Shown here piece by piece: positions 14,801 to 38,967 of a stretch of 64,000 nt of DNA (the stretch's first letter is position 1; every line of letters starts with the position of its first letter). The stretch comes from Thermococcus onnurineus NA1. Lineage in GTDB: Archaea; Methanobacteriota_B; Thermococci; Thermococcales; Thermococcaceae. Location: assembly GCF_000018365.1 (NCBI RefSeq), contig NC_011529.1, forward strand, positions 1,674,001 to 1,738,000, given 5' to 3'. The translations under genes and the position numbers were made by a program. The notes beneath the pieces are model-generated. The model searched no databases. It was not told the DNA's origin and worked only from the letters and a program-made list of their open reading frames with translations.

Positions 14801-14891
14801 TAAAACCACCCGTTGAAGTTCTTGGAAGTGAAAGCTTAAAACTCTTTGGCTATGGAATCTGACTTTTTATCTGGAAGTAAAAAAAGAAACC

Positions 14892-19653: not shown

Positions 19654-19754
19654 TATGGACACCTACACTTGAGATAGTGAAGACCTAAAAAGTATTTTGG
19701 CCTTCAAAAAATTTATATATTCTCATTTCTTTTACGTTGGGGAGTGTGAATCTG

Positions 19755-22085
19755 ATGGGGAAGGATACTGGGGTTCATTTAGGAGGCCTCGCTCATAAGG
19801 TCTCTACAAATACGTTGATATTCCCTTCGATCTTCATCTTGGCACTTTTGGTTAGGATTAGAGATCTCAATAGGCCGTTTACTGAGTATTTCCGATACAT
19901 TAACTGTCAGTATGCGGTTTATGCTAAAAATTATGTCTGGTATGGTTACTTAAATACCAAGCTGGGTTTAATATCGACACCGTATTATGTTTATAACGGT
20001 GGGTATGAGTACTATTTTCACCATCCTCCTCTCATCAGTATATGGGTATCTCTGTTTTTCCGGCTCTTTGGGATAACCGAAGCCAGCGTTAGATTGGCTG
20101 AGATAGTATTATCCCTGGTTACCCTTGTTATGGTTTATAAGATTTCAAAGCGCCTTTGGGGAGACACAGTTGCCTATGTTTCATCTCTAATCTTCGCGTT
20201 ACTGCCCATGACCGCGTATTATGATAGAATCGTGGCTCCCGATTATTCGGCGATCCCTTTTGTTCTCCTCACACTGTATTTCTATATCCTGTGGTCTGAA
20301 CACCCCAAATCTAGGTATCTAGTATACATGGGACTCTCCCTTTTCGTGGGTACTTGGTTCGACTGGCAGGCATATATCATCGTGTTGGGAATTGGAATTC
20401 ATGCTGTTCTCTCAGATCGGCCAGACAAACACAGGGTGTTGGTAGTACTGTTTGGAACTGCGCTATTAGCTTTCGCGTCTTACCTCCTCTTTGTGTTTAT
20501 GGTGGGAGGTCGTGAACAGATCGTGGAGTTATACCATGGCTTTCTCACCAGGACAGGGATTAAAGTTTACCACGGATTTGATCGTCCAGGAGCTCGCTAT
20601 ACATTCACCATTTTACAATTTTTGGTCCTTGAGCTTAAGAGGGCACTTAACCTGTTTACCTCTATAATCCTGCTGTTCACGGTTTTCTGGGCAGGATACT
20701 ATGTTATCCGGAGGCCCGTTAGGGATGGATATATACTACCTCTTTTTTTCCATGGGCTTGTGAGCATCTTTGTGTTTAAACAAGGGGCGTGGATACATGA
20801 TTTCTGGCTCTACCAGCTCGTTCCTGCAATGGTGCTTTCCTCTGGAAGGGGCATTGTTCTTTTTGCAGAACTGCCCAACAGGTGGGTGTCTGTCTCTAAA
20901 GGGATTCATCTCTCTCTGGTATCTTTGGGCCTTTTGTTCGTGACTCTTATTGAGTCTGTGTTTACTCTTGAGATTTTAGCTGTGGTCTACAAGGTACGCA
21001 TTGATTATGTTGTCGAGTTTGTAGTTGTTCTTGTGTGGTTTGTCTTAACTTTTGTTACGTGGATTGCCTTGTCTCTTCCTGACAAAGAGAGGTTGCTTGA
21101 TACGGAATCACTTAAGGTATCGTTTGCTATTTTTGTCCCTATATACCTGTTATTTGGATATTCAAAGAACTTGATATATCCTTATGTTCCCAAATACGGG
21201 ATTCTGCTCGTAATTGGCGTGCTTTTGATGATGGGACTATTTTGGCTGGGAATCCGAAAAAAATCTTCTGAAAGGGTATTAAAGGGAATTGTGATATTCC
21301 TAATTCTCGTGCTTTTTGCAGCTCAGGCTACCTATGTGGTTTCCATCCGGGACAGATGGGATTATCCCGTAGAATACAAATGGGGGAAAAGAATAAAGTC
21401 CATGACGTCTCCTGATGAGGGCGTTCTGGTGATTCCCGGTACGGGAATTCATAGTTACTCTTCAACGTTCTATTCCGAACGGCGTGTTGAACTTGTGTGG
21501 AATCTTGATGACCTAATTACTAAGCTTCAATCTCCCAATAGATACAGATACTTCATTGCAAACGATGCCCTTTTCAAAAACCCGAAATACTCTGAGCTAG
21601 CCTGCTATCTGTTTTCACATTATAATTCTACCTTTGTAGATGGCATGTACGTGTTTGACCTTCATTCTACGAGCGATATTGTGTTCTCATTAAATAGAAC
21701 GGTCGATTTTGACCGGAAAATAAGGCTTATCAACATGTCAATGGTCAGGATAGGGGGATTAAATAACTCTATGGTTGTGTGCTATATCTGGCTACCTCTT
21801 GCCCCCATTAAACAGGACTATACTGTTTTCGTTCATTTTGTCAAAAATAACAGCATTGAATTTCAGCAGGATCATCCCCCATGTGCTGGGAAGTGCCCCA
21901 CGAGTACTTGGCAGATGGGCACTCCTGTAATGGAAGTGTACTTATTGAAAGTCCCCTCAAATGGATGCTATGAATTGTATCTCGGGGTATGGAGTCCTGA
22001 TACTGGTAAACGATTACCAGTCAACTGTGTATGCAATGATGGTAATACCAGGGCATTTCTTGGTGATGTCTGTTTCACTGGCTAG
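19755..22085 (+). CDS. PMT/ArnT-like GT-C membrane glycosyltransferase
   Basis: 776 residues with about twelve membrane segments. The first extracellular loop ends in EYYFHHPPLISIW, the HPP signature of the GT39/ArnT class, which moves sugars from polyprenyl-phosphate donors. A C-terminal beta domain (last ~130 residues) contains YTVFVHFVKNN, FQQDHPPCAGKCPTSTW and YELYLGVWSPDTGKRLPV, a domain that often follows bacterial and archaeal PMT-type helices. ATG 19755 is chosen (GGGGAGTG 8 nt upstream); TTG 19737 and GTG 19746 are in frame. TATA-like ATTTATATAT (19711-19720) lies upstream. It converges with aglB, the stops overlapping by 3-4 bases. Confidence 0.85.
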   Translation: MGKDTGVHLGGLAHKVSTNTLIFPSIFILALLVRIRDLNRPFTEYFRYINCQYAVYAKNYVWYGYLNTKLGLISTPYYVYNGGYEYYFHHPPLISIWVSLFFRLFGITEASVRLAEIVLSLVTLVMVYKISKRLWGDTVAYVSSLIFALLPMTAYYDRIVAPDYSAIPFVLLTLYFYILWSEHPKSRYLVYMGLSLFVGTWFDWQAYIIVLGIGIHAVLSDRPDKHRVLVVLFGTALLAFASYLLFVFMVGGREQIVELYHGFLTRTGIKVYHGFDRPGARYTFTILQFLVLELKRALNLFTSIILLFTVFWAGYYVIRRPVRDGYILPLFFHGLVSIFVFKQGAWIHDFWLYQLVPAMVLSSGRGIVLFAELPNRWVSVSKGIHLSLVSLGLLFVTLIESVFTLEILAVVYKVRIDYVVEFVVVLVWFVLTFVTWIALSLPDKERLLDTESLKVSFAIFVPIYLLFGYSKNLIYPYVPKYGILLVIGVLLMMGLFWLGIRKKSSERVLKGIVIFLILVLFAAQATYVVSIRDRWDYPVEYKWGKRIKSMTSPDEGVLVIPGTGIHSYSSTFYSERRVELVWNLDDLITKLQSPNRYRYFIANDALFKNPKYSELACYLFSHYNSTFVDGMYVFDLHSTSDIVFSLNRTVDFDRKIRLINMSMVRIGGLNNSMVVCYIWLPLAPIKQDYTVFVHFVKNNSIEFQQDHPPCAGKCPTSTWQMGTPVMEVYLLKVPSNGCYELYLGVWSPDTGKRLPVNCVCNDGNTRAFLGDVCFTG

Positions 22086-24436
22086 TGGCTGGGGGTATTA
22101 ACCCTAAAAACTCCCCTATCAAGGACTCTCCCTTTAATCTCGTGTGAATACCTCACAACAACGCTTCCGTTCAGCTGCTCAGGAAGCGTGAACTCACTCA
22201 TCCCACTGACATCGTAGCATCTCCTGAACACTCTCGTCCCGTTGTCTAAAAATCCTTCGATTACCAGATCTGTCCCCGTGGCATTGGTAAACCTCAGCAC
22301 GATTTTGTCCCCATCCCTGAGGACCGCCACGTTGGGGTGTTCGAATCTGAAAATCTTTATGTATCCTCTGTCCGAGTAAACCAGGCGGTAGTTTGGTGCC
22401 CTCTCCGTGAACATCAGCCTGGCGAGGGTCGTGTTGAATGCCCTGCCGTTCATCAGCACCGCGTAGCCGTAGTTCAGGTTGAGGTACACGTAGGCATCTG
22501 CCTTCTGGATCCCTGTGACGTTCACCTCCCTGACCCCTGCAGTGTCTTCAACGAAGGCTTTCCTGGGGGAGAACCTGCTCCCCCCTACCGTTACCACTAC
22601 CTCCCAGCTGCTGCTCCTGGTTCTGGCCGATATGGAGTACCCCTCTCTTTCGAAGAGGAACGCTCCTCCAACCTGCTCCACGAGTGGAATGGGCACCATC
22701 GGGTAGTCCTTGGGAGGAACTCCAGCCGTCTCCAGCACTGCCGGGAACTTTAAAACGGTGTCGTATGATACTATGATGTAATCCACGCCCAGATTCATAA
22801 GCTCCTCTTCGCTGGCCAGACCCATGTAATACCTAGCTACGAACTCGTTTGGAACCCCTTGAGTAACTGGGGCTCTCCAGGAGTAGTAGGTAACCCAATA
22901 TCCTTGATCCCACCAGGTGAGAACAATATCGTTTCCGTTGGAATGCTCGCTGAGATAGATTAGGGCTTTCTCCCATTCAGCATTCATAAATGGTTTTACG
23001 TTGAGTGTGTTCTGTACGCCTACCCATGCGGTGGGAACAGTGACAAGGACTATGAGAATACCAGCTATAACTGGATGACTGCGGATGTTCAACTTATGGA
23101 TCTCCCTTACAAGGTTCCATAACCCAACTCCGCCGAGTATGGCGACCGCAGGGGAACCTATAAAGAGGAATCTAGTCCAAGTGTATATCATAGGTATACT
23201 TGGCAACACAAATCCGAGCACAACGAAGTCTTCAATGGCAATCTTTGAGGGTCTGAGTCGTAAAAGAAAGAACAAAGCTGCAATGATTACTGAACCGTAG
23301 GAGATCCACACATCCCGGAGGGACGGTTGCCGCGTTTCTGTGATGGATTCCCCGCTGAAGTGCTTTATAAAACTTAAAAAAGTGCCTTCTATGAATCCGT
23401 AGTACTTCACCATCAAAACTAACGCCAATATGAGGAGTACAACTATAATCCCGACACGATGCGTCCTACTTCGTATGACTTTAGATATTATGAACAAAAG
23501 CACGATAAATGCAAGGGCTAGTGGAACTGCATATCTTATGTAAGCCAGTAAGAAAGCATCCTTAATGGTCTCAAGGTGAAATCCGAGCTTCTGTGCAGTT
23601 TCGATACCTAGAGGACGATTCCATCCAAACATTCCATAGTAAAAGTACTCCCCAAGAAAATTCGCCAATAGGGCTCCGAAGAGAGTAGATACAACGATGG
23701 CTACTGAGTCAACTAACATACGAGACTTCTGGAGTAACAGTGCACCTATGGATAGAAATATAGCGTTTCCAAGGAGGAACACGAATATTAGGTAATATGC
23801 ACTCCAAAATATACTTGCCAGGCCTGATGCTAATGCTGGTACTAGATAGAGTAGCAGTCTCCTCTTTTTCCAGCTTTCTCCTTCATTCCGGCGTGAGAGA
23901 GCAAGGCTAATTCCCAAGAGAGCGAGACTGTACCAGAAAAGCAGATAGTTGTCCCCCCGATAATATCCAGCTATTGAACGGAAGACGTGTCCAAAGGAGA
24001 TGGATAAAAACAACGCGCTTAAAAATGCTTCTTCTCTGCCATACAGCTTCCAGACAGACAGATACACGAATATAATGGTTAAAACGCCAAAAATGACAGG
24101 TGTTATCCTGAATGAATCGTAGAGTGAGATTCCAAAAATCGATAAGATCCTGTATACATAAGCCGGGGTCATCCAGAGGCCAAGTGGATGAAAGTTATTT
24201 ACAAGCATGCCCCAAGGAGCTTTGGCGTACGGGAAAAAGTTCACCCACTCCCCAAGTTTAAGGGAATACTTAACGTATGCCATATGAAAATATGTGTCAT
24301 AGCCAAGAAGATAGCTTAATCTAAAGGGTATTAAGCGAATAGCGATGGCGATGCTAGTTAAAATAGGGAGGGCATACTTTGGTTTAAGCAGGTTTTTGAT
24401 AACGCTCAGAATGAATTCTAGTGTAACTGTTCTCAC
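22082..24436 (-). CDS. aglB: STT3/AglB oligosaccharyltransferase
   Basis: 784 residues from the chosen start. It transfers the lipid-linked glycan to Asn of N-x-S/T sequons on the outer membrane face. The first loop has GYDTYFHMAYVK (the D-x-Y-F-H metal motif), another loop has YYRGDNYLLFW, and the globular domain opens with WWDQGYWVTYYSW, the STT3 signature. About 12 membrane segments precede it. Start: GTG 24436 is preferred because GGGGG lies 6 nt before it, the same GGGGGATT-x-GTG arrangement as at 35207; an in-frame GTG at 24502 and ATG at 24481 would add up to 22 residues. Neighbouring glycosyltransferases and sequon-rich secreted proteins fit its role. Confidence 0.93.
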   Translation of the reverse strand: MRTVTLEFILSVIKNLLKPKYALPILTSIAIAIRLIPFRLSYLLGYDTYFHMAYVKYSLKLGEWVNFFPYAKAPWGMLVNNFHPLGLWMTPAYVYRILSIFGISLYDSFRITPVIFGVLTIIFVYLSVWKLYGREEAFLSALFLSISFGHVFRSIAGYYRGDNYLLFWYSLALLGISLALSRRNEGESWKKRRLLLYLVPALASGLASIFWSAYYLIFVFLLGNAIFLSIGALLLQKSRMLVDSVAIVVSTLFGALLANFLGEYFYYGMFGWNRPLGIETAQKLGFHLETIKDAFLLAYIRYAVPLALAFIVLLFIISKVIRSRTHRVGIIVVLLILALVLMVKYYGFIEGTFLSFIKHFSGESITETRQPSLRDVWISYGSVIIAALFFLLRLRPSKIAIEDFVVLGFVLPSIPMIYTWTRFLFIGSPAVAILGGVGLWNLVREIHKLNIRSHPVIAGILIVLVTVPTAWVGVQNTLNVKPFMNAEWEKALIYLSEHSNGNDIVLTWWDQGYWVTYYSWRAPVTQGVPNEFVARYYMGLASEEELMNLGVDYIIVSYDTVLKFPAVLETAGVPPKDYPMVPIPLVEQVGGAFLFEREGYSISARTRSSSWEVVVTVGGSRFSPRKAFVEDTAGVREVNVTGIQKADAYVYLNLNYGYAVLMNGRAFNTTLARLMFTERAPNYRLVYSDRGYIKIFRFEHPNVAVLRDGDKIVLRFTNATGTDLVIEGFLDNGTRVFRRCYDVSGMSEFTLPEQLNGSVVVRYSHEIKGRVLDRGVFRVNTPSH

Positions 24437-24599
24437 TTGAATCCCCCATAGCAGTACCTTTTCTGAGAATATTAAAAGCATTGTGTTATTCTCTATCTTC
24501 ACAAAGTTTAATGTTAAAAAATAGGGGCATCATAAAACGTTCAGGGGTAGATAATTTTAAAGCCATAACCCAAAAGCAAAGGGAGGGGAGAGCAGGATT

Positions 24600-25724
24600 A
24601 TGAAGATTGCATTTGTTTATGATGCGTTATATCCAGAAATCAAAGGGGGCGTGGAACGTAGGCTGTATGAAATTGGAAAGAGACTTGCAAAAAGGCATGA
24701 GGTGCACTGGTACTCCTTCAATTGGTGGGGTTCTAATAAGCAACTAGAACGTGAAGGTATAATTATCCATGGCGTTGGAAGGCCCGTTCACTTCTACAAA
24801 GGTAACAAGCGGGATCCCAAGGAGGCAATAATGTTTTCTTGGAGACTATTGATGAAAAAAGTAAACTCTTACGACATTGTGGACTGCCAGGAGTTCCCTT
24901 ACTTGCCCAGTTATTCGGCAAAATTCAAATTTGCCGATTCAGGTAATTTTGTAATAACGTGGCATGAGTATTGGGGAGAATATTGGGGAGAATACCTTCC
25001 TGCTGGGTCAAGAATTGGGAGATTAGTAGAAGATAACATGCTAAAACTGACAGAGAATCATGTCGTGGTTTCAAAACACACTTTGCAGAGGTTGTGTAAA
25101 GTACGAGCGGGGAGATTTGAGTTAATACCTAATGGTATTGACTTCAAAGCCATAAAAAAGGTACCTCCTCATCGGGAGAAGAGATATGATGCAGTATTCG
25201 TTGGCAGGCTCGTAGAACATAAAAATGTGATGTTGCTACTAAGAGCGATAAAGCCGATACGGACTGAGTATCCCACATTCAGAGTTGGAATAATTGGGGA
25301 TGGGCCCCAGAAAAAAGAATTAGAAACTTTCACAAGAAGGCAAGGGCTACAGAAAAATGTAGAATTTCTGGGGTTCTTGGAGGATTTTGAGGAAGTTATA
25401 GCGATACTTAAATCTTCTAGGCTCTTAGCTTTCCCTTCTATGAGAGAAGGATTCGGCATGGTCGTTCTTGAAGCAAATGCCTCTGGAATTCCAGTAGTTA
25501 CCGTGGATGCTCCCTTAAATGCATCAAAAGAACTGATATTGCCTGGAAAGAATGGTTATGTAAGCACTCCTACGCCGGAAGATTTTGCACAGAAAATCTT
25601 ATTAGCGTGGGAAAATTCTTACAAGATGAGACGACAGTCTATCTCACTTGCAAGGAAATACGACTGGGATAATATCTCTAAGAAGTTGGAAAGATACTAC
25701 AAGGGTGTGCTGCATGAAACCTGA
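24600..25724 (+). CDS. GT4-family glycosyltransferase
   Basis: 374 residues with GT-B fold. The N-terminal half shows KGGVERRLYEIGKRLAKRHEV, and the C-terminal half shows FVGRLVEHKNVMLLLRAI and the retaining E-x7-E motif in SMREGFGMVVLEANASG. It is a soluble enzyme acting at the cytoplasmic membrane face. The ATG follows GGGAGGGGAG. An exact 12-bp tandem duplication (24969-24992) gives the repeated YWGEYWGEY. Its end overlaps the next start by 11 bases, so it heads a three-gene operon. Confidence 0.93.
   Translation: MKIAFVYDALYPEIKGGVERRLYEIGKRLAKRHEVHWYSFNWWGSNKQLEREGIIIHGVGRPVHFYKGNKRDPKEAIMFSWRLLMKKVNSYDIVDCQEFPYLPSYSAKFKFADSGNFVITWHEYWGEYWGEYLPAGSRIGRLVEDNMLKLTENHVVVSKHTLQRLCKVRAGRFELIPNGIDFKAIKKVPPHREKRYDAVFVGRLVEHKNVMLLLRAIKPIRTEYPTFRVGIIGDGPQKKELETFTRRQGLQKNVEFLGFLEDFEEVIAILKSSRLLAFPSMREGFGMVVLEANASGIPVVTVDAPLNASKELILPGKNGYVSTPTPEDFAQKILLAWENSYKMRRQSISLARKYDWDNISKKLERYYKGVLHET
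24969..24992 (+). repeat. Two perfect tandem copies of a 12-bp unit inside a glycosyltransferase gene
   Basis: TATTGGGGAGAA occurs twice head-to-tail, in frame, adding four residues (YWGE). This looks like recent slippage. Confidence 0.9.
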
Positions 25725-26832
25725 GGTGACGGTTGTTTTACCTACAAGAAATGAGGAAAGGGCTATATCGATAATGCTGCCCCGTATCAGGGGTGTGCTG
25801 GAGAGGCTGGAGGTACCATACGAGATTATTGTTGTGGATAAGAGTGTCGATAAAACCCCTGAAATAGCCGAACAGCTCGGTGCGAAGGTTATTAAGCAGG
25901 AAGGTATTGGCTATGGCGATGCATACCTAACTGGGTTCAAACATGCAGATGGAAAGTTCATTATAATGATGGATCCCGATGGTAGCTATGACCCAGAGGA
26001 TATTCCAAATATCTTGAAGCCCCTCCTAGAGGGGGAGGCAGACTTTGTAATAGGTACCCGGCTGAGGGGGAAGATGGATAAGGGCGCCATGCCCTGGCTT
26101 CACAAATATATTGGGAATCCCCTTCTAACCAAAATTCTCAACATCCTCTTCAAAGCTGGAATATCTGACGCTCACTGTGGTATGAGAGCCATAAGAAAGG
26201 ATGTACTTGATCAACTGCCCCTGAAATGTAGGGGGATGGAGTTTGCGAGTGAAATGGTCATAGAGGCTGCAAAGAAGAATCTGAGGATAGTTGAGGTTCC
26301 CATCAGGTACCATCAGAGGATTGGTGAATCAAAGCTCAGCTCCTTTAAAGATGGGTGGAGACACCTGAGACTTATGTTGCTGTATTCCCCATCGCATCTG
26401 TTCCTCTTCCCTGGAATACTGCTCCTGGGTATGGGACTTCTGCTTATGGGGTACACTTACTTCATTAACCCAGAGAGACTGCATACAATGATACTCGGCA
26501 GTGCACTTACCCTACTCAGTGTTCAGATCCTGAGCTTTGGGATCTCTGCCAAGGTCTATGCGGCTAAGGAGGGGCTGGATGAACCCACAAGACTCACGAA
26601 CTTCTTTATGAGGTATTCAATCCTCGAGGAGGGCTTGTTGGTCGGGGGGATTATGTTCATTATAGGAATTATGTTAGGTGTCCATATCTTCCTCCAGTGG
26701 CAAAACGCGGGATACGGTGCTTTGTTCAAGCTGAAGGAGGCCATTCTTGTACTGACGTTCACGACGATTGGAATCCAGGTAATGTTTTTTGCGTTCTTCG
26801 TTAGCATATATCTCCTCAAGGGGGACGATTAA
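25714..26832 (+). CDS. GT2 polyprenyl-phosphate sugar transferase (DPM/AglD-like) with membrane tail
   Basis: 372 residues. The N-terminal GT-A domain opens EVTVVLPTRNEERAIS and carries the metal motif MMDPDGSYDPED. Further on come FVIGTRLRG and HCGMRAIRKDVLDQL, all typical of dolichol/polyprenol-phosphate mannose or glucose synthases. About four hydrophobic helices follow residue 230. It charges the lipid carrier used by GT-C enzymes such as the two upstream. ATG 25714 overlaps the previous gene's end and is preceded by GGGTGTG; a longer in-frame extension would lie inside that gene. Confidence 0.92.
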   Translation: MKPEVTVVLPTRNEERAISIMLPRIRGVLERLEVPYEIIVVDKSVDKTPEIAEQLGAKVIKQEGIGYGDAYLTGFKHADGKFIIMMDPDGSYDPEDIPNILKPLLEGEADFVIGTRLRGKMDKGAMPWLHKYIGNPLLTKILNILFKAGISDAHCGMRAIRKDVLDQLPLKCRGMEFASEMVIEAAKKNLRIVEVPIRYHQRIGESKLSSFKDGWRHLRLMLLYSPSHLFLFPGILLLGMGLLLMGYTYFINPERLHTMILGSALTLLSVQILSFGISAKVYAAKEGLDEPTRLTNFFMRYSILEEGLLVGGIMFIIGIMLGVHIFLQWQNAGYGALFKLKEAILVLTFTTIGIQVMFFAFFVSIYLLKGDD

Positions 26833-27923
26833 TGGAAAAAGACAGAAAGTCTATTCTGATTGTCTCTCCATATTTTTATCCTGAAGGTGGGGGCTTGGAA
26901 AGGTATGCATTTCACATGGCCAAACGGCTTGCAAAAGAACATGATGTTGAAGTACTCTGCATGACTAAAGGCTCAGAAAGCAGCGAGGATATGAACGGAT
27001 TTAGGGTATGCAGGATAAAACCGGAACTTATAGTCTCTAACACACCCATCGGGTTGAAGTTTGTTGTTGCCTTAGCCAAGAGGATGAAACATAAAGATCT
27101 AATAATTGCACATACTCCCGTGCCGTTCGCTGCTGATGTGGCTGCAATTCTCTCGGGGATATACGACATTCCGATCAGGATAGTCTACCATACTGTCGGC
27201 CTCAAAAAGGGAGCGAGGCTCTTGGATTTCATTGCTGTCATCTACATGGCCACGCTTGAGAGGTTAACGCTTCGGAGGGCGATGATAACTTCAGTATCCC
27301 GTTCTGTGTGGGAATATCTGAAAAGGAAGGGGTACAACTCGGAAATCTCATATCCTCCTATGGCTCATAGTCTAATGGAGCACTGTCTCCTAAATCTTCC
27401 CGTAAAGAGGAAAAACGTAATCCTTTTCGTAGGCCAGCTTGGGAGGTATCACAGATTCAAGAACCTTGATCTTCTTCTTGGGGCGTTTTCTGAGGTCTCA
27501 TCACGATATCCAGGATGGGAGTTGTGGATAGTTGGGGACGGTGATATGAAACCCGAATACGTTTCCCTTGTGTCTAAACTTGGAATATCCCAGAGAGTAC
27601 GGTTTCTGGGGCGGATAAACGACCCTGATGATCTAGCCCGGGTGTACTCTACAGCCAAGATGCTTGTCCTGCCCTCCTCTTTCGAGTCCTTTGGGATGGT
27701 GGTTGTGGAGGCTCAAGCATTTGGCGTTCCTGTTGTTATTTCTCCGAATGTGGGTTCGAAGGTGTTTGTTCTGGATGGCAAAACTGGAACTATTATGAAA
27801 ACTATTAAGATTGAGTCATTGGAGGAGGCCCTTGAGACCCTGATGAGCAATCCCAAACGGCTTAGGAAAATGGCCATTCTCTCACGGAAGTTTACACAAC
27901 ACAGGATCAGATCTTCCCCTTGA
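26832..27923 (+). CDS. GT4-family glycosyltransferase with a short C-terminus
   Basis: 363 residues, GT-B fold: PEGGGLERYAFHMAKRLA near the N-terminus, FVGQLGRYHRFKNLDLLLGA in the middle, and SSFESFGMVVVEAQAFGVPVV with E-x7-E. It starts at TAATG shared with the previous stop, so it is translationally coupled. The C-terminus ends SRKFTQHRIRSSP, where relatives usually continue with a helix packing back on the N-domain. The last 17 bases overlap the converging phosphatase-like gene. Truncation by rearrangement is possible. Confidence 0.88.
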   Translation: MEKDRKSILIVSPYFYPEGGGLERYAFHMAKRLAKEHDVEVLCMTKGSESSEDMNGFRVCRIKPELIVSNTPIGLKFVVALAKRMKHKDLIIAHTPVPFAADVAAILSGIYDIPIRIVYHTVGLKKGARLLDFIAVIYMATLERLTLRRAMITSVSRSVWEYLKRKGYNSEISYPPMAHSLMEHCLLNLPVKRKNVILFVGQLGRYHRFKNLDLLLGAFSEVSSRYPGWELWIVGDGDMKPEYVSLVSKLGISQRVRFLGRINDPDDLARVYSTAKMLVLPSSFESFGMVVVEAQAFGVPVVISPNVGSKVFVLDGKTGTIMKTIKIESLEEALETLMSNPKRLRKMAILSRKFTQHRIRSSP

Positions 27924-29314: not shown

Positions 29315-32300
29315 ATGAATAAATGCAAGAAAGCCCAAATTTTTGGCCTGGTGTTGGCATTTTTGATTCTGGCATCAGTAGTGCCAAGCTTTGCACCAGG
29401 CTTTATGACCCCCGTTAAGGCAGCGGGCTACATTACAGGAATTAGTGCGGATACGAACTATGGAGGCTGGGTATTATTCGCAGGTTTTGAATACTTTGTC
29501 AACATAACCATTAACGCAACCCAGCAGACATTTGCAAATGTGACATTGTATTACATATACCAGGATGGTCATAATGAAAGCGTTTACAGCAGAGTTAAGC
29601 CCATTTCAACAGGCTCCAACACGGTTCTCATAAACTCAACTGATCCCGGGGACATTGATCCATCTTACTCAAAAGTACCTCAGGATGTTGAAAGGGTCAC
29701 CCTTGTTGTTTATGAGTACGATATTGCCAACGGCAACATTCCTTATACTGGCACCATTTTTGAATTCAACGTTAGGTATCCATTTACAGTAGTCCTTCAG
29801 GACATACAGAGCAGTGTTCCGTACTACAATGGAACAGACTGGCTCAATGACAAGGCTCTTGAGTACATACCTTTCAATATGACAGTCAATGTTACCTACG
29901 ACCCACAGCTCGTTAATAGCTCTTTGATAACGGTTCCATCCAGCCAGATTGTCAACATAACTCTTCCGGACGATAGTGGTCCAAAGGTTCTGCAGATTAT
30001 CGTAAACATTACTGATAAGACTGATCCCACACTTATCCAGAATAACCATGGTAGTGCATTCGTTGAGCTTAGTGGTGGTGTGAACGCGTCTGATGTGGTG
30101 AAAGTAGCATCCACTGCAGGAGGATACACTTACGTTAACAACAGTGCTCTCACTATATATGACTGGGGTCTTGATTACACATACAAAGTCGTACCCTCTG
30201 CTACTGACGACCATACTCCGTACAAGTATGTGCCATTTGATCTGTATATGAATCTCACTGCTGTCTTTGCTTTTGGCATAGTGGGGGTTAACGACACTGC
30301 AAGTGTAGTAGTTACTAGTGACGTGGTAGGTGGTTCAAACACTACTACCATGATAAACGGTACTGCTGAGATTGTCATTAAAAACCTCATCGTAGATCCG
30401 GCCGATGTTACAATTACATTTGCCACACATTGGGAAGAACTCTATGGTGACTTCACAATAACTGGAGCTCCGTGGAACATTTATGTAAGTGACTATACCG
30501 TATATTATACCGGTGGGAGCCAGAATGACGATGTGTTCTATGTAAATGTGCCGGCTACTCTCAATGTTGAAGTCCAATACAATCTTACGGCTGTTATTAA
30601 CTCGACACCGGACTACAAGATACTTCTCAACGGTAATGAGATCGCTAATGGAACATTCGATGTCGTCAATAATTTTGGCTCATTTGAAGTTAACATAACC
30701 CCAAATGAGGTCGGTACGATTACGGTTGTCATAAATGACACTACATATCATGTTAGCACGACCATGGACATCCCTGTCAAAGCTTGGAACGTTACTAGCA
30801 ACTACACAGTTTTCAACTATGGCATCTACCCAGATAATGTCTTCTACGTCAGTATTCCAGCGGATCTTGACATCAGTGCCCAGTTTACTCCTCTGGGAAT
30901 TTTCCTGAACTCCAGCGTCGTTGTTGAGGTCTATGACATGAACAATAACCTTCTGAACACCACGGTACTACCAATAACTGACAACTTTGGAAGTGGAACT
31001 GTTCTTACCAATGTGGAATTCAATGAACCTGGCTATGTGCTCGTAAAGGTTTATAACGACACTTACATGGTCTGGACTAGCTATACTATCCCGATAAAGG
31101 ACTGGGGCATTTACGTTAGCACAACACCTGCGAATCTTACTGTTGGCCAGACCACAGATATCACCGTCGAGGTGGGAGAGAGTCTCCAGTTCCCAGGAAG
31201 CAGAAACGTTAATGTTACCCTTGAACTTCCTGATGGTTACACCGAGACTAAGACCCTCACGCTTGAAGGGCCCATTGCTGCCGGACAGGGCGGTTATTAT
31301 GGATTTGTGACCTTCGCAAACATAACCGCCAACAGTGTTGGCCTCGCCAAGATCATTGTCACCGACGTTCTTACTGGGAAGACCGTTACCCACTACATGC
31401 TCATCGAGCCCAGTTTTACCATAACCAACCGGTACATCGAGGTCACCGCCATGCCGGTCAGCAGTCCAGTTTACGCGTATTTACCGAATACCCTTAACAT
31501 CGAGCTCCAGTACAAGTCTAAAAGTGGGGACTACATATTCAATGAAGACATTAATACCGAGGCTAATGTCACCATAATTGACGCTGATGGAAATGTCTAC
31601 ACTATCAATTACGTGCCTGTTAAGAATGGATACGTTAAATTTAACTACAATATCCCAGTTAACGGCACTAATCCGATTTACATTGAGGCTGTTGACGCAT
31701 ACAATGCTAGTGTAGTTGGCGTTGCGATGGTTTCAGTGGAGACATGGAATGCTACCTTCGACTTCACTACCGACGGCGACGTCTACCAGTACGTTGACAA
31801 CACCCTTTACGTGACCGTTTACGTCAACGGCCCGAGCGTCCCGGTCGACGTTACCATTAACGGAGCTTCTGTTGGTTCCTACAGCAATGGTGATGTCATA
31901 ACTGTCGCCATAGTTGACCCGCAGGGAACCCTCACCTACAATGTCGAGGCTACCTATAATGGCCACGTCGTTGGTACAGGTAGCTACGTCATCGAGCCTA
32001 TCATCTGGAATGCCACCATAATCGTCGAGCCGGACATGCTCTACTGGGGAATCAGCGACGAGCTTCACGTCAGTGCTGAGCCCACTGGCAATGTCCCACT
32101 CATCGCGGACGATCTAAACGTTGACGTCAGCACTAACTACGGAAACGCCAGCGGTGCTGGTGCGATTACAATACTGCTGACCAACCCAACTGACAACGTC
32201 ACCGGAACCGTCTATGTCTACTACAATGGCCATCTAATAAACTCCACCGCAGTTAGCATACCTGTCGAGAGCTGGGACATCATTGTCCAATACACACCAA

Positions 32301-35128
32301 CAGAGTTCTACTATCTGCCACATGGGTATGCCAACCCGCCGCTCATGGGCAACGTGACCCTTAGCCTGCCATGGGATGTGGCCAGTGCTGCGAACGTGGG
32401 ATTTGAGGTTTCACTTCCGACGCTTGGAATTGGAGGGGGCTCTCAGGGATCCAACTACTTTGACATAGACTTCAGTTGGGCACCTGAGAAGTTCGTCTTC
32501 AACCAGAGCGGCGTCGTCCAGATGATCATGATGGTCTTCGACCCGGCCACCAACTTCACGTACTTCGCCCAGACGTACGACATCCCAATAGAGCTTGCTC
32601 TTGACGCCACTGTGTCCCCGCAGATAGCCTACGTTAACGTGCCATTTGACCTTATGGTGAACGTCACCTCCATCGCGGCTAGTCCGAACATCACAGTCAC
32701 CATTGACGGGACCAATTACACCGCAACTGCCTACCAGAATGGAGTCATTGTTATATCAGACGTTGTTCTTGAGCAGAACGGAATCTATACAGTCGTCATC
32801 CATGATAATGCCCTAAACGCCACAATAACTAGGGCACTTGAGGTTCGTGACTGGCATATTGAGGTAACCGCTACTCCGTCCAACATAACTGCCGGTAGTA
32901 TGTACAACGTGAACTTTACAATAGCATTTGTTGACGAGATGGGTGATATGGTCAACATCACCAGTATGGCCTGTCTTATGCTTGAGTTCAGCAATAACAG
33001 CATTATACCAAGTGGTTTCTACACTTGGATGATACCCATCACAGAGGGTCATGGAGCAATAGTTAATGCACCTATCTTTGCTCCAGTTGCTGGAACCTTC
33101 CAGATTATGGTGGCTAGTAAGTACGGAATGAAGAACGACACAGAGACTATAATGGTCAACGCGCCCAACCCCGCTGACTTGACCTACGTCTATGTTAACA
33201 TCAGAAAAGAAGGTTCCCTTGAGCCGCCCGGAGAGCCAGTTAGACTATACTGGGGAATCGAGATTGGCGGAGTCAAGAAGTACTTCCCGGTCTACAACCC
33301 GGTCTACAACGCCGACTACTCTGAAGGAATGTTCGAGCTGTATCCACAGCAGCCCTTCAACCTGTACGTCATAGCGGTTCCGTCCACCATTAACTATCCA
33401 ATCGTAGAGGAAGGGCAGAACTATACCTGGGAGAATGTCCTCCAGTACGTCAACGAAACTTGGTACGAGCTTAACAAGACCGTTACAGCCACTTCGATCG
33501 ACAATGGCTGGTCTATAATGGTCAACGTCTCCAAGTACAAGGTTAACCTCGTTAATATCACAAAAGACATTTACAACCTTCAGGTTACCAACGTTCCGGG
33601 ACTCATCCAGATAGTTCCAGGGTCTGCTTCGGTCCAAGGTAATGCTATATTTAGTGGAGTCACTATGGAAACATATCACTACGAGGACTTTATGAGAGAC
33701 CTCATGGCCGAGCCCGCTGAAGGCGCAACCATTATAACCATTGAACCCAATGAACTGGCCCTAGAGCTTCTTGACGATACTATGTTCAAACCAACTCAGG
33801 CCGGTGAGTACTTCACCTTTAAAGCGATGTTGAGCATTACCAACGCTGAGGAGCAGTTCGATGCTCAGTGGATGCCATTCGAGGACTGGATCAACAATAT
33901 AACTTTCCTCAATGACACTGAAAAGCAAGAGATAATTGCCGAAATATTGGCCAGTGTTGGCAACGTCTCAGAACTCAACGGTCCTGTCGCCAATGAGACA
34001 TTGGACTTCCACATAGACAATATGGCCATAGCTTACCTCGAGCCAACCAACGCTACCACTGACGAGACTGGAAGCGCCATCTTTAAGGTCTGTACGCAGG
34101 CCACTCCAGATATGACTCCGGAGGAGCTTATTACCCTCATGGGAGCAGTTGACGTCTGGGCTGCTTACGATGGGCTAGCCAGCAACGACATCGTTGTCGA
34201 GTTCGGTGGTACCAGTTCAATTTCAGGTGACATAACCGATGACAGTGGAAACCAGGTGCCAGGAGCCACCGTTATCTTGAAGATATGGAACGGCACTACT
34301 TGGGTCAACGCCACCGACTTCGAGGGCAACGTCCTCACCGCTGTCTCCGCCGAGGACGGACACTACGCCATAAGCAACGTCCCGGCCTCCGTTGACGGCA
34401 GCAAGTACATGATCGTCGCCACCAAGGGCAACCTCACCGGCTACGCTTACGTGACCGTCTACCCGTTCGCCACCTCAACCGCCGACGTCAAGCTCCGCGG
34501 AACCATCGAGACCAGCGGATTCGCGATGTATTCGGAGAGGATCGCCAACGCCGACACGGTCTACTTTATCTTCAACAACCTCGGAACGCCAGATGCATTC
34601 TCGACTTCCCAGTACATAGCCCGCACCGTCCCGATTGACGTCAGAACCAAGTCAGTGCTCGCTGACCAGTTCGACTTCGCCCAACTGACCGCCAACGACG
34701 TCCTCATCTCTGTTGGTGGACCTCTCGTCAACCCGGTCACCGCGGCCTACGAGGACATAGCCCCGGTCCACATGGTGGTGGACGGCATGATAACCATCGT
34801 CACCCCGCAGGGCAACTTCACTTGGCAGCCGCCTACTCCGTGGTGGAACGCCACCAAGGGCTACTTCATCATACAGCTCTTCGAGGACAACAGTGGAGCA
34901 CTTGTAGTCACCATCTACGGTACTGATGCCGACAGCACCGCGGCCGGAGCCTACTACTTCATAACCCAGGTCTCCCCGAACATCGACAGCTACAACGGCA
35001 TTCGTTACATCGTTGGACTGTGGGAGGACACCGAGCCCGGAGCTGACGTGCCGTTGCCGGGTGCTGACCTCGGAGACACTAGTGGATTCAGTGCCGGCGA
35101 CAGCATAACCATTGTGGCCGAGGGTTGA
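29315..35128 (+). CDS. Giant secreted multi-module surface protein (S-layer/adhesin type)
   Basis: 1937 residues. Signal peptide: MNKCKKAQ then a hydrophobic run to PVKAAG. The body is a string of about ten beta modules of ~90-130 residues whose junctions repeat a pattern ending in Trp, e.g. IPVKAWNV, IPIKDWGI, VSVETWNA, IPVESWDI, VRDWHIEV. N-x-S/T sequons are very dense, so it is a probable AglB substrate. Near residue 1640 comes a carboxypeptidase-regulatory-like module (SGDITDDSGNQVPGATVIL). The last ~170 residues (FNNLGTPDAFSTSQY to DTSGFSAGDSITIV) are shared with the protease at 11834 and the protein at 35932. No transmembrane helix ends the protein, so that C-terminal domain is the likely cell attachment or assembly part (inference). 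Confidence 0.9.
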   Translation: MNKCKKAQIFGLVLAFLILASVVPSFAPGFMTPVKAAGYITGISADTNYGGWVLFAGFEYFVNITINATQQTFANVTLYYIYQDGHNESVYSRVKPISTGSNTVLINSTDPGDIDPSYSKVPQDVERVTLVVYEYDIANGNIPYTGTIFEFNVRYPFTVVLQDIQSSVPYYNGTDWLNDKALEYIPFNMTVNVTYDPQLVNSSLITVPSSQIVNITLPDDSGPKVLQIIVNITDKTDPTLIQNNHGSAFVELSGGVNASDVVKVASTAGGYTYVNNSALTIYDWGLDYTYKVVPSATDDHTPYKYVPFDLYMNLTAVFAFGIVGVNDTASVVVTSDVVGGSNTTTMINGTAEIVIKNLIVDPADVTITFATHWEELYGDFTITGAPWNIYVSDYTVYYTGGSQNDDVFYVNVPATLNVEVQYNLTAVINSTPDYKILLNGNEIANGTFDVVNNFGSFEVNITPNEVGTITVVINDTTYHVSTTMDIPVKAWNVTSNYTVFNYGIYPDNVFYVSIPADLDISAQFTPLGIFLNSSVVVEVYDMNNNLLNTTVLPITDNFGSGTVLTNVEFNEPGYVLVKVYNDTYMVWTSYTIPIKDWGIYVSTTPANLTVGQTTDITVEVGESLQFPGSRNVNVTLELPDGYTETKTLTLEGPIAAGQGGYYGFVTFANITANSVGLAKIIVTDVLTGKTVTHYMLIEPSFTITNRYIEVTAMPVSSPVYAYLPNTLNIELQYKSKSGDYIFNEDINTEANVTIIDADGNVYTINYVPVKNGYVKFNYNIPVNGTNPIYIEAVDAYNASVVGVAMVSVETWNATFDFTTDGDVYQYVDNTLYVTVYVNGPSVPVDVTINGASVGSYSNGDVITVAIVDPQGTLTYNVEATYNGHVVGTGSYVIEPIIWNATIIVEPDMLYWGISDELHVSAEPTGNVPLIADDLNVDVSTNYGNASGAGAITILLTNPTDNVTGTVYVYYNGHLINSTAVSIPVESWDIIVQYTPTEFYYLPHGYANPPLMGNVTLSLPWDVASAANVGFEVSLPTLGIGGGSQGSNYFDIDFSWAPEKFVFNQSGVVQMIMMVFDPATNFTYFAQTYDIPIELALDATVSPQIAYVNVPFDLMVNVTSIAASPNITVTIDGTNYTATAYQNGVIVISDVVLEQNGIYTVVIHDNALNATITRALEVRDWHIEVTATPSNITAGSMYNVNFTIAFVDEMGDMVNITSMACLMLEFSNNSIIPSGFYTWMIPITEGHGAIVNAPIFAPVAGTFQIMVASKYGMKNDTETIMVNAPNPADLTYVYVNIRKEGSLEPPGEPVRLYWGIEIGGVKKYFPVYNPVYNADYSEGMFELYPQQPFNLYVIAVPSTINYPIVEEGQNYTWENVLQYVNETWYELNKTVTATSIDNGWSIMVNVSKYKVNLVNITKDIYNLQVTNVPGLIQIVPGSASVQGNAIFSGVTMETYHYEDFMRDLMAEPAEGATIITIEPNELALELLDDTMFKPTQAGEYFTFKAMLSITNAEEQFDAQWMPFEDWINNITFLNDTEKQEIIAEILASVGNVSELNGPVANETLDFHIDNMAIAYLEPTNATTDETGSAIFKVCTQATPDMTPEELITLMGAVDVWAAYDGLASNDIVVEFGGTSSISGDITDDSGNQVPGATVILKIWNGTTWVNATDFEGNVLTAVSAEDGHYAISNVPASVDGSKYMIVATKGNLTGYAYVTVYPFATSTADVKLRGTIETSGFAMYSERIANADTVYFIFNNLGTPDAFSTSQYIARTVPIDVRTKSVLADQFDFAQLTANDVLISVGGPLVNPVTAAYEDIAPVHMVVDGMITIVTPQGNFTWQPPTPWWNATKGYFIIQLFEDNSGALVVTIYGTDADSTAAGAYYFITQVSPNIDSYNGIRYIVGLWEDTEPGADVPLPGADLGDTSGFSAGDSITIVAEG

Positions 35129-35150: not shown

Positions 35151-35206
35151 CATTTACCGAAACTTTTTAATTCTGCCATTTTCAAAAGAGTTGTCGGGGG
35201 ATTAGT

Positions 35207-35929
35207 GTGAAATGGGAGCATTATCTGCTAGCTATAATGGTAATTCTTGTCATTGGTAGCATTGTATTAATAAACTCCCAAAGGGCTCCTGGGTTCTCAA
35301 AAGTTTATTTTGATAGCACTACTGTACCGGCATATTTGACTCCTAATACCACATATAGCATAGTTTTCATTATCGAATCTCATGAGAAGGGCCCCGAGGA
35401 ATATTCCTTCAAGGTTTACCTAAATGATATGGTGATTAAGGACGGTAATATTTCACTCAACCCCGGTAGCATGGCTCAGGTATCCTTCGAATTCTTTATC
35501 GAGAATGTAACTTACCGAAGGGTTGTGTTGTGGGAACAAACTACGACTTACAATCTAAGTGGAATATATGATATCACAGGTAATTATATGAGATGGGGAG
35601 GTATCCTGATTGTTAATGATTCATATGGATCGCGGCTGCTTGAGCACTTACCCCCCTCGTACGCTGGGCCGAGCAATTTGAGCTTTCTCATGAATACCTC
35701 TAAAAATGTCACTGTCACTAAGATAGTTGAGAACAGGAGTAACACCAGCACGGTTGTGAAGGAATACCGGCTGATGTTGCTTAAACTGGGAGAGGACAGG
35801 TACAGAGTCATCGTCAAGGAATCCAAAATAATGTACCTGCCCGAATCGCTCACGATAAGAGTGGTAGTTGAAACAAGTAATGGGAAAGTGTATCAGATAT
35901 TCAAACGTCTTCCCCTCGCGGAGGGTTAG
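35207..35929 (+). CDS. Membrane-anchored extracytoplasmic protein, 240 aa
   Basis: One N-terminal membrane anchor (YLLAIMVILVIGSIVLI) and a beta-rich outer domain with many sequons. The segment NTTYSIVFIIESHEKGPEEY then SFKVYLND recalls the outer domain of DUF1616 proteins (one lies at 38968), but I cannot assign a family. GTG start at 35207 after GGGGGATTAGT. It ends 2 nt before the next gene, so the pair is co-transcribed; it may be an accessory of the polytopic protein. Confidence 0.8.
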   Translation: MKWEHYLLAIMVILVIGSIVLINSQRAPGFSKVYFDSTTVPAYLTPNTTYSIVFIIESHEKGPEEYSFKVYLNDMVIKDGNISLNPGSMAQVSFEFFIENVTYRRVVLWEQTTTYNLSGIYDITGNYMRWGGILIVNDSYGSRLLEHLPPSYAGPSNLSFLMNTSKNVTVTKIVENRSNTSTVVKEYRLMLLKLGEDRYRVIVKESKIMYLPESLTIRVVVETSNGKVYQIFKRLPLAEG

Positions 35930-35931
35930 AG

Positions 35932-38184
35932 GTGCAGACGCAGGTGGCGGTTTTAACTCTTTTGCTGGTTATCTCCACAATAAGCGCATACTTAATCATG
36001 GATGGGAAAGCTAATTTCCGGCTCAAACTTCTGGCGATAATCTTGTTCTCTGGTGTAGTTATTTTCTACATAAGAATCGGCTTTGGGAGGTATTTCACGA
36101 CCATAGATGAATCCTACTATGTGTCCCTCCTAGGAGATTCTCTATGGTATAAGACCTCGATAGTTTCTGGCTATATAACCCCATTTTCCCTTCATCTTGT
36201 TTATTCTTTTTCTTCTGACGTGATTGGTATAGTAGTGAGATACTCCATTGTAGTAGCTGTTCTGTATATACTTATCCTGTTTTTTGCTTACCAAAGGAAT
36301 GGTGTGTCCAAAAACCATGCCCTGTTGGCGATTCTACTGCTCTTCATAACTCCATTATATTGGTGGTCGGTCATTCAAATAAGGCCCCAGCAGATTGGAG
36401 TGCTGGTTGGACTTATCCTTGCAGTTCTTATCGTGACAGGACGCCCCACGTTTAGGTTTTTCGTTGGGGTTTTGATACTGTACGTAGCGCTTATTTTTGC
36501 TCACGTTCTGTCTTTTATTCTGTATTCTGCTGTTTTTGTTATGTACCTTGCCTTGTTAATACTATGGGAGAATAAACCCCGGGAAAACGCGAAAAAGTAC
36601 CTTACTGTTGCAGTTTCAATAATTGTTTCGTGGATTGTGTTTGTGACGTTTCCATACTCTTCAAATCTCTTTAAGAACATGACATGGATTGCAAATAATG
36701 TATTAAATCTTCAAATGTCGGTACAGACATTCTATGTTGCCTCGACTTTTGTTATGGGGATGTTTCTTGCCATTGTGTATCTCATGGCGAAATATTTTAG
36801 CAGTCATAATCCGATTAACTTGGATTCCCTTAAGGTGCCCCTACTCAAACTTGTTGATGCAGAGGTGAATGTTTTTCGGAGATATCTGCTCTGGATAGTG
36901 GTTGGGGTGGCGGTTCTTGTTGTCTTTTACGTTCAGTTTGAACTAGGTGCTCAGATATACACTCGGGTTTACAATAATTCAACCGCAGCCGTAGTGTTCT
37001 TCCAGATGGGGAACCTGTTTTTTGCACTGTTCTTTTTGAGAGGATTCTTCATGAAGATAAGAGAAAACACAATGACGGACTTTGACATCCTGTCCGTGCT
37101 GTGGATCCCAATAGGAGTAGCTCTCCTCATTATTTCGTTTTTCATGCCAAAAGGAAGCAGCATATGGGGGTTTCATAATTGGCTGGTACGAACACTCCAG
37201 TATTTTGTTGTATTTGCGTCTCCAATTGTGGCATATTCGATTATGGGGGATATAACTCCCAAAAATTCTGTCAGAATGAGATCTGTGCTGTCTCTCCTCC
37301 TTGGAATCCTGATCATAATTAGTGTGTTGAACACCATTAGGATCCCGGGCATATACAATTATGATACCATCTGGACTCCGGAACTGGTTAACGTCTGCCA
37401 AGAATCTCCGGTATCTGCTATTTACACGCCCCGGGTGGAGAGGTCGGTATACTACACGTTTGCCATGAACAACTTGCTCAAGGTTTGTGGAGGATATCTA
37501 AAAGACCCGAACATTAAATCACCAACGTACCTTATACTTTCTTCGGATCAGCTCTACGTATACATTCCGGATTACCGGCCCATTGGGTTAGGAGCCTTTG
37601 AGAACAGTCTACAGGATGTCGGGGGGATTGCTTGGATAATCGCAGGAGGAAACAGAGATGAGGTAGGGGAATACGCCCTATCATTACTCGGAAATGCTGT
37701 ACCGGTACCGGTTGAAAAGGACGGTGATTCATGCCCTCTGAGCCCAGACCGGATAGGATATCCCACTGTACTCGTTGGAGGAAAAGCCGTTAACCCCTGC
37801 ACGTTGCGCTTGGTGGAGGAGCACGTTGTCCCTGTGTATTTGGATTCTTATTCCGTGAGAACACCCACTGGAATGTACTCAGTCTCACATGCTGATGCTT
37901 GGTGGAATGTGGAAGATGGGCTGTTCGTCATACAAGCTGTCGAATATTACAACACTCCGGTTTTAATAATCGAAGGTACGAATGTCGATGCCACCCTTGC
38001 TGCTGTGTACTACTTCGTTGAAGAGGTGTATCCGAATCTGTTTCTCAAATACCAGAACACCAAATACATTGTGGGGAAATGGGAAGAGGATGACGACACT
38101 GTAATTGACGTTGCGAAATTGACTTCACAGGATACCAACGGATTTAGCCCTGGGGATAAAATCACGATTCTCGAAACGGGATAG
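35932..38184 (+). CDS. Polytopic GT-C-like membrane protein fused to an S-layer-type C-terminal domain
   Basis: 750 residues; about 12 hydrophobic helices fill the first ~480. The first outer loop contains FTTIDESYYVSLLG, an acidic motif like the D-E-x-Y-Y of GT39-class enzymes, and a later loop has WWSVIQIRPQQIG. After the helices comes an extracytoplasmic region. The final ~110 residues (from DAWWNVEDGLFVIQA through IEGTNVDATLAAVYYF to DTNGFSPGDKITILETG) align with the last part of the proteins at 11834 and 29315. GTG start at 35932 with GGAGGG upstream. It may be a glycosyltransferase or an export/assembly factor for proteins with the same domain (inference). Confidence 0.8.
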   Translation: MQTQVAVLTLLLVISTISAYLIMDGKANFRLKLLAIILFSGVVIFYIRIGFGRYFTTIDESYYVSLLGDSLWYKTSIVSGYITPFSLHLVYSFSSDVIGIVVRYSIVVAVLYILILFFAYQRNGVSKNHALLAILLLFITPLYWWSVIQIRPQQIGVLVGLILAVLIVTGRPTFRFFVGVLILYVALIFAHVLSFILYSAVFVMYLALLILWENKPRENAKKYLTVAVSIIVSWIVFVTFPYSSNLFKNMTWIANNVLNLQMSVQTFYVASTFVMGMFLAIVYLMAKYFSSHNPINLDSLKVPLLKLVDAEVNVFRRYLLWIVVGVAVLVVFYVQFELGAQIYTRVYNNSTAAVVFFQMGNLFFALFFLRGFFMKIRENTMTDFDILSVLWIPIGVALLIISFFMPKGSSIWGFHNWLVRTLQYFVVFASPIVAYSIMGDITPKNSVRMRSVLSLLLGILIIISVLNTIRIPGIYNYDTIWTPELVNVCQESPVSAIYTPRVERSVYYTFAMNNLLKVCGGYLKDPNIKSPTYLILSSDQLYVYIPDYRPIGLGAFENSLQDVGGIAWIIAGGNRDEVGEYALSLLGNAVPVPVEKDGDSCPLSPDRIGYPTVLVGGKAVNPCTLRLVEEHVVPVYLDSYSVRTPTGMYSVSHADAWWNVEDGLFVIQAVEYYNTPVLIIEGTNVDATLAAVYYFVEEVYPNLFLKYQNTKYIVGKWEEDDDTVIDVAKLTSQDTNGFSPGDKITILETG

Positions 38185-38286: not shown

Positions 38287-38883
38287 TCACTGCTCTGCGT
38301 TTATCTTCATGTCCACCTCCACCCTGTCGGTCTGGCACTCGTTGCCCGCTTCTGGTGAGAACCTTATCCTCATGACGATCTTTAGCACCTCACCCTCTCC
38401 CAGGGAGCCTTTGAAGAGCTCTATCTCCTTCCCGTCAAGTTCCCTCAGTGTTCTGCCCGCCACCTCCGTCAGGTCGGTGGTTGTGCCTCCGTGCTGTACC
38501 GAGAGGCCCGTTATCACGAGGTAGCCGCTCAGTTCGCCTCTCTCTGTGGTGTTGTCGACTTCCTTCTCGGCGGGGGAGAGGGCACCGTCCTCCAGGTCGT
38601 TAACGTAAATGGTCATAGTAATCCTCGAAACCTCGAGGTCCCCGCGGTTTTTCACGTAAAAGGTTACGGTTTTCTCGTCGCCAGGCATTAAATCCGAGAA
38701 GTCGAAGAGCTTGAGGCCGTTGTAGAACCTCTCTCCGTCTTTGCTTATTCCTATATCGAACTTTCCGGAGGAGATCTCGTTGTTCTCAGAGAGGGCTATG
38801 TCCGTGAATAGGGAGCTGGAGAGCCCCGCGAGCGCAACCAGCAGCAGAAGGGCCGCACTCAGCACAACTTCTCTACGTCTCAT
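38287..38883 (-). CDS. TasA/camelysin-like secreted protein
   Basis: 198 residues. N-terminal MRRREVVLSAALLLLVALAGLSSSLFTD is a signal peptide. The mature start SENNEISSGKFDIGISKDG, the FDFSDLMPGDEKTVTFYVKN motif and the later sequon-bearing beta strands are typical of the TasA/CalY (SipW-dependent, former peptidase M73) family, which form extracellular fibres in Bacilli and occur widely in archaea. ATG 38883 follows GGTGGTGG. It leads into a reverse-strand group with DUF1616 and MoxR/DUF58 genes. It may form surface fibres or pair with the membrane proteins next to it (inference). Confidence 0.82.
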   Translation of the reverse strand: MRRREVVLSAALLLLVALAGLSSSLFTDIALSENNEISSGKFDIGISKDGERFYNGLKLFDFSDLMPGDEKTVTFYVKNRGDLEVSRITMTIYVNDLEDGALSPAEKEVDNTTERGELSGYLVITGLSVQHGGTTTDLTEVAGRTLRELDGKEIELFKGSLGEGEVLKIVMRIRFSPEAGNECQTDRVEVDMKINAEQ

Positions 38884-38967
38884 TTCCACCACCAGCGATA
38901 GTATTCAACTAGTGATTACGTGGGATGGACTTATAAAATTTTCTCTCAAAATAGTAAGAAATAGGGC

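Follow-up and report, generated by a model that had tools for sequence, protein, structure and literature searches.

The 750-residue product of a gene in the 64,000-nucleotide stretch of Thermococcus onnurineus NA1 DNA analyzed here (hereafter, the window) is predicted to combine a membrane bundle of the GT-C glycosyltransferase fold with a C-terminal S-layer anchor-type domain. The novelty of this protein lies in the presence of such a domain on a transferase, matching that of a secreted protein encoded at the same locus. Our search of the literature found no paper describing a fusion of a GT-C protein to an S-layer domain, although such a paper may still exist. We interpret the protein as a transferase that uses a dolichol-phosphate sugar and whose anchor-type domain docks it on the giant secreted protein encoded upstream or on the S-layer. 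Taken as a whole, we assign this reading a probability of roughly one half, since activity, sugar, acceptor and docking are each what we infer. The features on which the analysis rests are listed in Table 1.

Table 1. Features of the window considered in this analysis (positions are those of the window).
Feature	Position	Strand	Evidence
Papain-like secreted protein with the same C-terminal domain, 991 aa	11834..14809	-	genome match, Peptidase_C1 E 4e-9, PEGA E 1e-17
Second GT-C gene in the cluster (PMT_2)	19737..22085	+	PMT_2 E 1.6e-18
AglB-type oligosaccharyltransferase (WWDQG)	22082..24502	-	family match, motif
GT4 glycosyltransferase	24600..25724	+	family match
GT2, dolichol-phosphate-mannose-synthase-like	25648..26832	+	Glycos_transf_2 E 7.7e-28; 5mlz E 8.7e-20
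GT4 glycosyltransferase	26832..27923	+	family match
Giant secreted protein, 1937 aa; C-terminal shared domain at about 34706-35122	29315..35128	+	ORF, genome match
Promoter-like BRE/TATA box CCGAAACTTTTTAATT, giant-partner gap	35157..35172	+	sequence; similar box in 7/7 partner loci inspected
Single-pass partner, CARDB-like outer domain (predicted), 240 aa	35207..35929	+	ORF, model
GT-C-like membrane protein (putative transferase) with S-layer anchor-type domain at C-terminus, 750 aa	35932..38184	+	ORF, model, fold, 20-sequence conservation
Membrane (GT-C) part, residues 1-478	35932..37365	+	fold match starts at residue 24; boundary by alignment
D59-E60 codons, invariant acidic pair of outer loop	36106..36111	+	20/20 sequences; pairs with PMT_2 Asp-Glu
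S-layer anchor-type domain (predicted), residues 549-750	37576..38181	+	9FSA Z 11.2; profile match to secreted-protein domains 99.9

Predicted fold of the membrane protein

The initial annotation of this region had described two open reading frames separated by 2 bp, the second of them encoding a polytopic protein of about 12 helices with the acidic sequence IDESYYVSLL in an outer loop. Both frames (35207-35929 and 35932-38184), their spacing and the location of the acidic sequence were confirmed, and the GTG start of the longer frame is found just 3' of a Shine-Dalgarno-like GGAGGG run. The polytopic bundle was likewise recovered, with 13-14 membrane helices instead of 12, in a three-dimensional model calculated with AlphaFold2 on a 12-row alignment (pLDDT 81.9).

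We compared this model to known structures by running VIA-align on the best 1000 Foldseek matches, a set in which the absence of a family does not amount to its exclusion. Among these matches, oligosaccharyltransferases rank first, with AglB (3waj; Z 22.8, 380 residues, rmsd 4.7) and yeast STT3 (Z 22.3) followed by ArnT (5f15; Z 17.7), AftA (17.5), the C-mannosyltransferase DPY19 (17.4), Pmt4 (16.3), AftD (15.2), ALG9 (13.9) and EmbB. The AglB, STT3 and ArnT scores are well above the Z of 13 quoted for chance helical bundles. A lack of the GT-C fold in a comparison with GT39 and STT3 structures, named earlier as an outcome that would speak against the annotation, was not what we observed, and the membrane part of the protein is predicted to be a GT-C bundle. 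Foldseek by itself gave a weaker result, with three matches below 1e-3 (OST, PglB) and many transporter rows beneath them.

Family models did not identify the protein. None of the Pfam and NCBIfam glycosyltransferase models recognizes the transferase, the PMT_2 model yields no match at E <=1 in 12 members and the STT3 model no match to the transferases. Searches of solved structures with the transferase profile returned only chance matches (E 0.9), and hhalign comparisons with PMT_2 and STT3 subfamilies taken singly produced no signal. When the profile of the membrane part was compared with that of 20 PMT_2 proteins, the resulting probability was 61.7 with 12 rows and 76.8 (score 51.0) with 20 rows, against at most 2.5 (score <=28.0) for reversed and 40 block-shuffled controls, and the alignment pairs the Asp-Glu of the transferase with that of PMT_2. 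Since the known relatives STT3 and PMT_2 reach 99.6 in an equal test, the link between the transferase and PMT_2 is a remote one.

The ranking of AglB and STT3 as the closest folds, among the best 1000 Foldseek matches, would agree with an oligosaccharyltransferase-like variant of AglB transferring a whole lipid-linked glycan. Such a variant is nonetheless very improbable, given that profile comparison with 16 STT3 proteins yielded 1.1 and, at most, 8.7, and that a neighbouring gene encodes a true AglB. Moreover, the WWDYG-type catalytic motif that defines the oligosaccharyltransferases AglB and STT3 is absent from all 20 transferase sequences, in which WW[DN].G occurs a single time, within the S-layer-type domain. 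Membership in the oligosaccharyltransferases was therefore rejected.

Conservation of a putative outer active site

An acidic motif in the first outer loop is a defining feature of GT-C enzymes, and the corresponding D59-E60 pair is kept in every transferase sequence. Across the membrane part of 20 sequences with a lowest pairwise identity of 24%, we identified 43 invariant positions, of which 40 are outer, three mid-membrane and none inner, with 226 positions available for the count on the outer side and 156 on the inner side. Sides were assigned from the helices of the model and loop charge, and the G104 row was included without 60 N-terminal residues of uncertain start. A 16-sequence version of the analysis presented 46 invariant positions, distributed as 43 outer, three mid-membrane and none inner. 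The invariant residues include R48, R53, R151, H191, R420 and R470 in addition to the acidic pair. Conservation restricted to the outward face is expected for a working extracellular active site, and the model and the alignment together make it very probable that this protein is a working GT-C enzyme.

The shared S-layer anchor-type domain

The proposal that the protein ends in a surface domain shared with the giant protein was borne out, as its last ~140 residues match the giant with 39% identity (E 6e-21). The same residues match the C-terminus of the 991-residue protein at 11834-14809 with 40% identity (E 4e-23), and these three proteins are the only places in the 1.85-Mb single-contig genome where the domain is found. 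In profile comparison, transferase domains align to secreted-protein domains with a probability of 99.9 (E 2e-34; 0.3 for the reversed control). In the predicted structure, residues 550-701 superpose on the S-layer anchor of Methanococcus voltae (9FSA; Z 11.2, rmsd 2.7, 120 residues), and by its predicted fold we assign the shared domain to the S-layer anchor type. BcsB and a GH115 domain score almost as high as 9FSA (Z 11.0 and 9.9, respectively), indicating that the anchor fold alone is not specific. The alignment with BcsB, the crown protein of cellulose secretion, spans the full length of the domain (37576-38181; 149 residues). According to the source, the 9FSA domain is responsible for anchor dimerization, and a dimeric anchor also appears in S-layer models of Thermococcus and Pyrococcus (PMC11410804).

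Only one of 12 transferases matches PF05124 (S_layer_C), with an E of 0.0029 that does not pass the cut-off, and the giant scores 19.4 bits against this model, below the cut-off of 23.9. Profiles of the shared domain matched the C-termini of canonical Thermococcus S-layer proteins with probabilities of 43 (transferases) and 91 (secreted proteins), compared to 2.2 or less for reversed profiles. The combined alignment of the domain omits two secreted-protein rows, L033 and L039. In the domain tree, a branch (100/99) sets all transferase rows apart, as would be expected if the transferase domain originated by one fusion, with long branches leaving the finer order of the tree unsure. Two genomes of the genus (G014 and G019) contain the shared domain without the transferase.

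Distribution of the fusion

Searches using only the membrane part identified matches in 15 of 101 relatives, comprising 14 of the same genus and the distant archaeon G100. At a broader scale, matches were obtained in 20 of the 115 phylum genomes searched and in one of 87 from the phylum of G100. The domain is carried by 20 of the 21 complete homologues (19 in the phylum and one on the metagenome-assembled contig L044), a count from which two contig-end fragments (G125 and a second copy in G084) were excluded. Homologues lacking the domain, which the initial annotation had considered damaging if they proved to be the rule, are thus represented by a single exception, the 559-residue protein of G100. 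The presence of the domain in all 20 remaining complete homologues led us to reject an artefactual fusion. As a separate observation, L044 is a 5-kb contig labelled as Thermotogaceae bacterium on which a TasA-like gene of the Thermococcales type accompanies those of the partner and the transferase; it is probably misbinned, or else represents a transfer.

The G100 homologue also bears on the nature of the acceptor. It lies in what appears by eye to be a cluster of GT4 genes, with no giant and no domain, as might be expected if a GT-C enzyme of this same kind acted on a lipid-linked glycan, a glycolipid or a surface polysaccharide, and if the domain only kept the enzyme in the S-layer zone. Enzymes acting on lipid-linked glycans or polysaccharides are also present among the fold matches (ALG9, Z 13.9; AftD, Z 15.2; EmbB). 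An acceptor of this type is nevertheless unlikely, because a domain-bearing secreted protein is encoded upstream of the transferase in 19 of 19 genomes, a neighbour for which an enzyme acting on glycolipids in general would have no use.

Linkage to glycosylation genes

The solved structure nearest to the GT2 protein is the Pyrococcus dolichol monophosphate mannose synthase, and its next solved relatives handle 4-formamido-arabinose. The gene encoding this protein is present at the fusion locus in 19 of 19 genomes, although in one of them (G030) contigs break inside the giant and the GT2 gene lies on the far side. The genomic co-occurrence that had been put forward as a check was examined, and GT2 was found to track the fusion. 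Within the genus, GT2 occurs in 14 of 37 genomes, corresponding to 12 of 12 with the fusion and two of 25 without it (Fisher p 5e-8, for genomes that share ancestry and whose neighbourhood counts are therefore not independent trials). GT2 and the fusion may simply have been inherited together as a single gene block and need not be a functional pair. GT2 is also found at the locus in seven further fusion genomes (G066, G084, G104, G108, G113, G123 and G126). The distance between GT2 and fusion ranges from 4.8 to 10.2 kb in the 11 genomes having both on one contig, and AglB is encoded ~1 kb from GT2 in 11 of 11 genomes. A second close AglB is encoded elsewhere in six genomes (G001, G009, G010, G013, G018 and G032), and in the two inspected genomes without the fusion (G007 and G004) AglB has other neighbours and no giant.

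In the two exceptions harboring GT2 without the fusion (G011 and G020), a GT2-GT4 pair lies beside another GT-C gene, which in G020 encodes 455 residues with a profile probability of 89.9 to PMT_2 and in G011 is split over two frames. The shared domain was absent in all seven proteins tested from the neighbourhoods of G011, G020 and G100. For GT2 relatives outside the family (G040, G044 and G048), a recognizable GT-C gene was located near by only in G040. Neither the fusion nor GT2 is present in 23 genomes of the same genus, most of which, among those examined, have an S-layer gene.

The giant protein and a proposed function

The giant contains 65 sequons, compared to 24.0 (sd 4.4) expected from shuffled sequences; the corresponding values are 10 against 2.3 for the partner and 0 against 1.5 for the outer part of the transferase. 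The domain-bearing secreted protein found upstream in 19 of 19 genomes is encoded on the same strand, and is either adjacent to the transferase or separated from it by the partner in 17 of them, lying a few genes off in G113 and G123. A canonical S-layer gene (618 residues; L060:4183-6039, minus strand) is located elsewhere in the genome. The giant is thus a further coat protein and may have to do with the double S-layer that PMC5744192 reports in Thermococcales. By eye, neither the giant nor the canonical S-layer protein has a C-terminal hydrophobic segment.

This last observation, together with the dimeric S-layer anchor fold of the domain (PMC11410804), would also suit a catalytically dead GT-C bundle acting as a membrane anchor, with its outer domain pairing with the giant or the S-layer protein and thereby holding the coat. 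Such an anchor, however, would not retain 40 outward invariant residues, including Asp-Glu, at 24% identity, nor would it track a donor-sugar synthase, and the 23 same-genus genomes devoid of fusion and GT2, most of those examined having an S-layer gene, also argue against it. We hence consider a dead anchor improbable. The transferase might instead be enzyme and anchor at once, with its domain and the one at the C-terminus of the giant or the S-layer protein joined in a mixed dimer. As neither protein shows a C-terminal membrane helix, a mixed dimer would allow the membrane-embedded transferase to hold the coat while glycosylating it, a doubtful arrangement in our estimation.

In the docked-transferase reading that we favor, GT2 would charge dolichol phosphate with a sugar at the inner face of the membrane, and the transferase would take a single sugar from the dolichol-phosphate carrier at the outer face. 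This sugar would be passed to a surface glycoprotein of the same locus, most likely the sequon-rich giant, either as an extension of a glycan that the AglB encoded near by had already put in place or by direct attachment to the protein, with the anchor-type domain docking the transferase on the giant or under the S-layer. The transferase may glycosylate or tether the giant, as suggested by the gene neighbourhood, the density of sequons and the type of domain. A dolichol-phosphate sugar is the probable donor, and the giant or the S-layer is slightly favored as acceptor. Docking of the enzyme on its substrate would be the simplest role for the anchor-type domain, and the suggestion that it proceeds through like-with-like domain pairing is a tentative one, to which we give a little less than an even chance.

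Relation to known systems

In Haloferax, AglD, AglR and AglS add mannose to the AglB-attached S-layer glycan by way of a dolichol-phosphate-mannose branch (PMC3871713). The Haloferax volcanii system divides the work between a synthase, which loads dolichol phosphate on the inside, and a transferase acting on the outside, and the locus described here would operate alike. In contrast with that system, the transferase here bears a domain of the S-layer anchor type, and the genes for GT2, AglB and the surface protein are linked in one block. Pyrococcus furiosus is described as building its N-glycan on dolichol monophosphate (PMC4476749). The PMT_2/ArnT/PMT monosaccharide transferases share with the protein the predicted GT-C fold and an outer-loop Asp-Glu that aligns with its own, but the transferase lacks a Pfam match and has an S-layer-type domain in place of the usual outer domain. 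AglB/STT3 (GT66) provide the best fold matches (Z 22.8), yet the protein has neither WWDYG nor a match to STT3. Finally, the C-terminal domain resembles the archaeal S-layer anchor of PF05124/9FSA in its predicted fold. That anchor is split by lattice domains, whereas the domain here is contiguous, falls below the PF05124 cut-off, sits on a polytopic protein and adds a conserved C-terminal tail (NGFSxGDxI).

If the favored reading is true, a sugar transferase reaches its substrate by wearing the assembly domain of that very substrate. Furthermore, the donor synthase, the oligosaccharyltransferase, the GT4 enzymes, the transferase and the giant glycoprotein would travel as a coat module in the Thermococcaceae, and S-layer anchoring would be linked with glycosylation in a group for which a double S-layer has been reported (PMC5744192).

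Small partner, promoter-like box and other surface proteins

The initial annotation had also assigned a small membrane partner to the transferase. Its position 2 bp upstream holds in the window, but not its standing as an obligate part of the system, since it is present in only 11 of 20 complete loci. In eight loci of a second clade there is no room for it (gaps <=63 bp) and the transferase lies directly 3' of the giant, and it was not detected at the G104 locus; it was consequently rejected as an obligate subunit. The predicted structure of the partner is a CARDB-like sandwich behind one helix, with the PF1109 CARDB domain (3idu; Z 12.3) among many Ig-like matches, and its match to DUF1616 (E 0.052) is under the cut-off. 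Where present, the partner may play a role in the system.

The sequence CCGAAACTTTTTAATT, a putative promoter by the archaeal consensus, comes after an oligo-T run. The location of this promoter-like box in the gap between giant and partner, with a similar box at all seven partner loci inspected, suggests that partner and transferase probably form an operon of their own, not read with the giant.

Several other surface proteins were noted. The papain-like protein at 11834-14809 includes a stretch (WYQVGQPQAIEGTDWIVTVLDISIIDQRA) nearly identical to one inside the canonical S-layer protein and, judging from its sequence, appears to be a surface protease assembled from S-layer modules. The 646-residue protein encoded at L061:2510-4450 (plus strand) matches S_layer_C (E 3e-8) and contains a HELGH motif identified by eye; it may be a surface metalloprotease bearing a domain of the S-layer type. 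In G126, a second shared-domain protein of 1616 residues (L154:9613-14463, plus strand) is encoded between the giant and the partner. Downstream of the transferase, the gene at 38287-39957 (minus strand) encodes a TasA/camelysin-like protein (Peptidase_M73 E 2.9e-6) and adjoins that of a DUF1616 protein; in G001, G013, G018 and G032, too, the transferase has the DUF1616 gene beside it.
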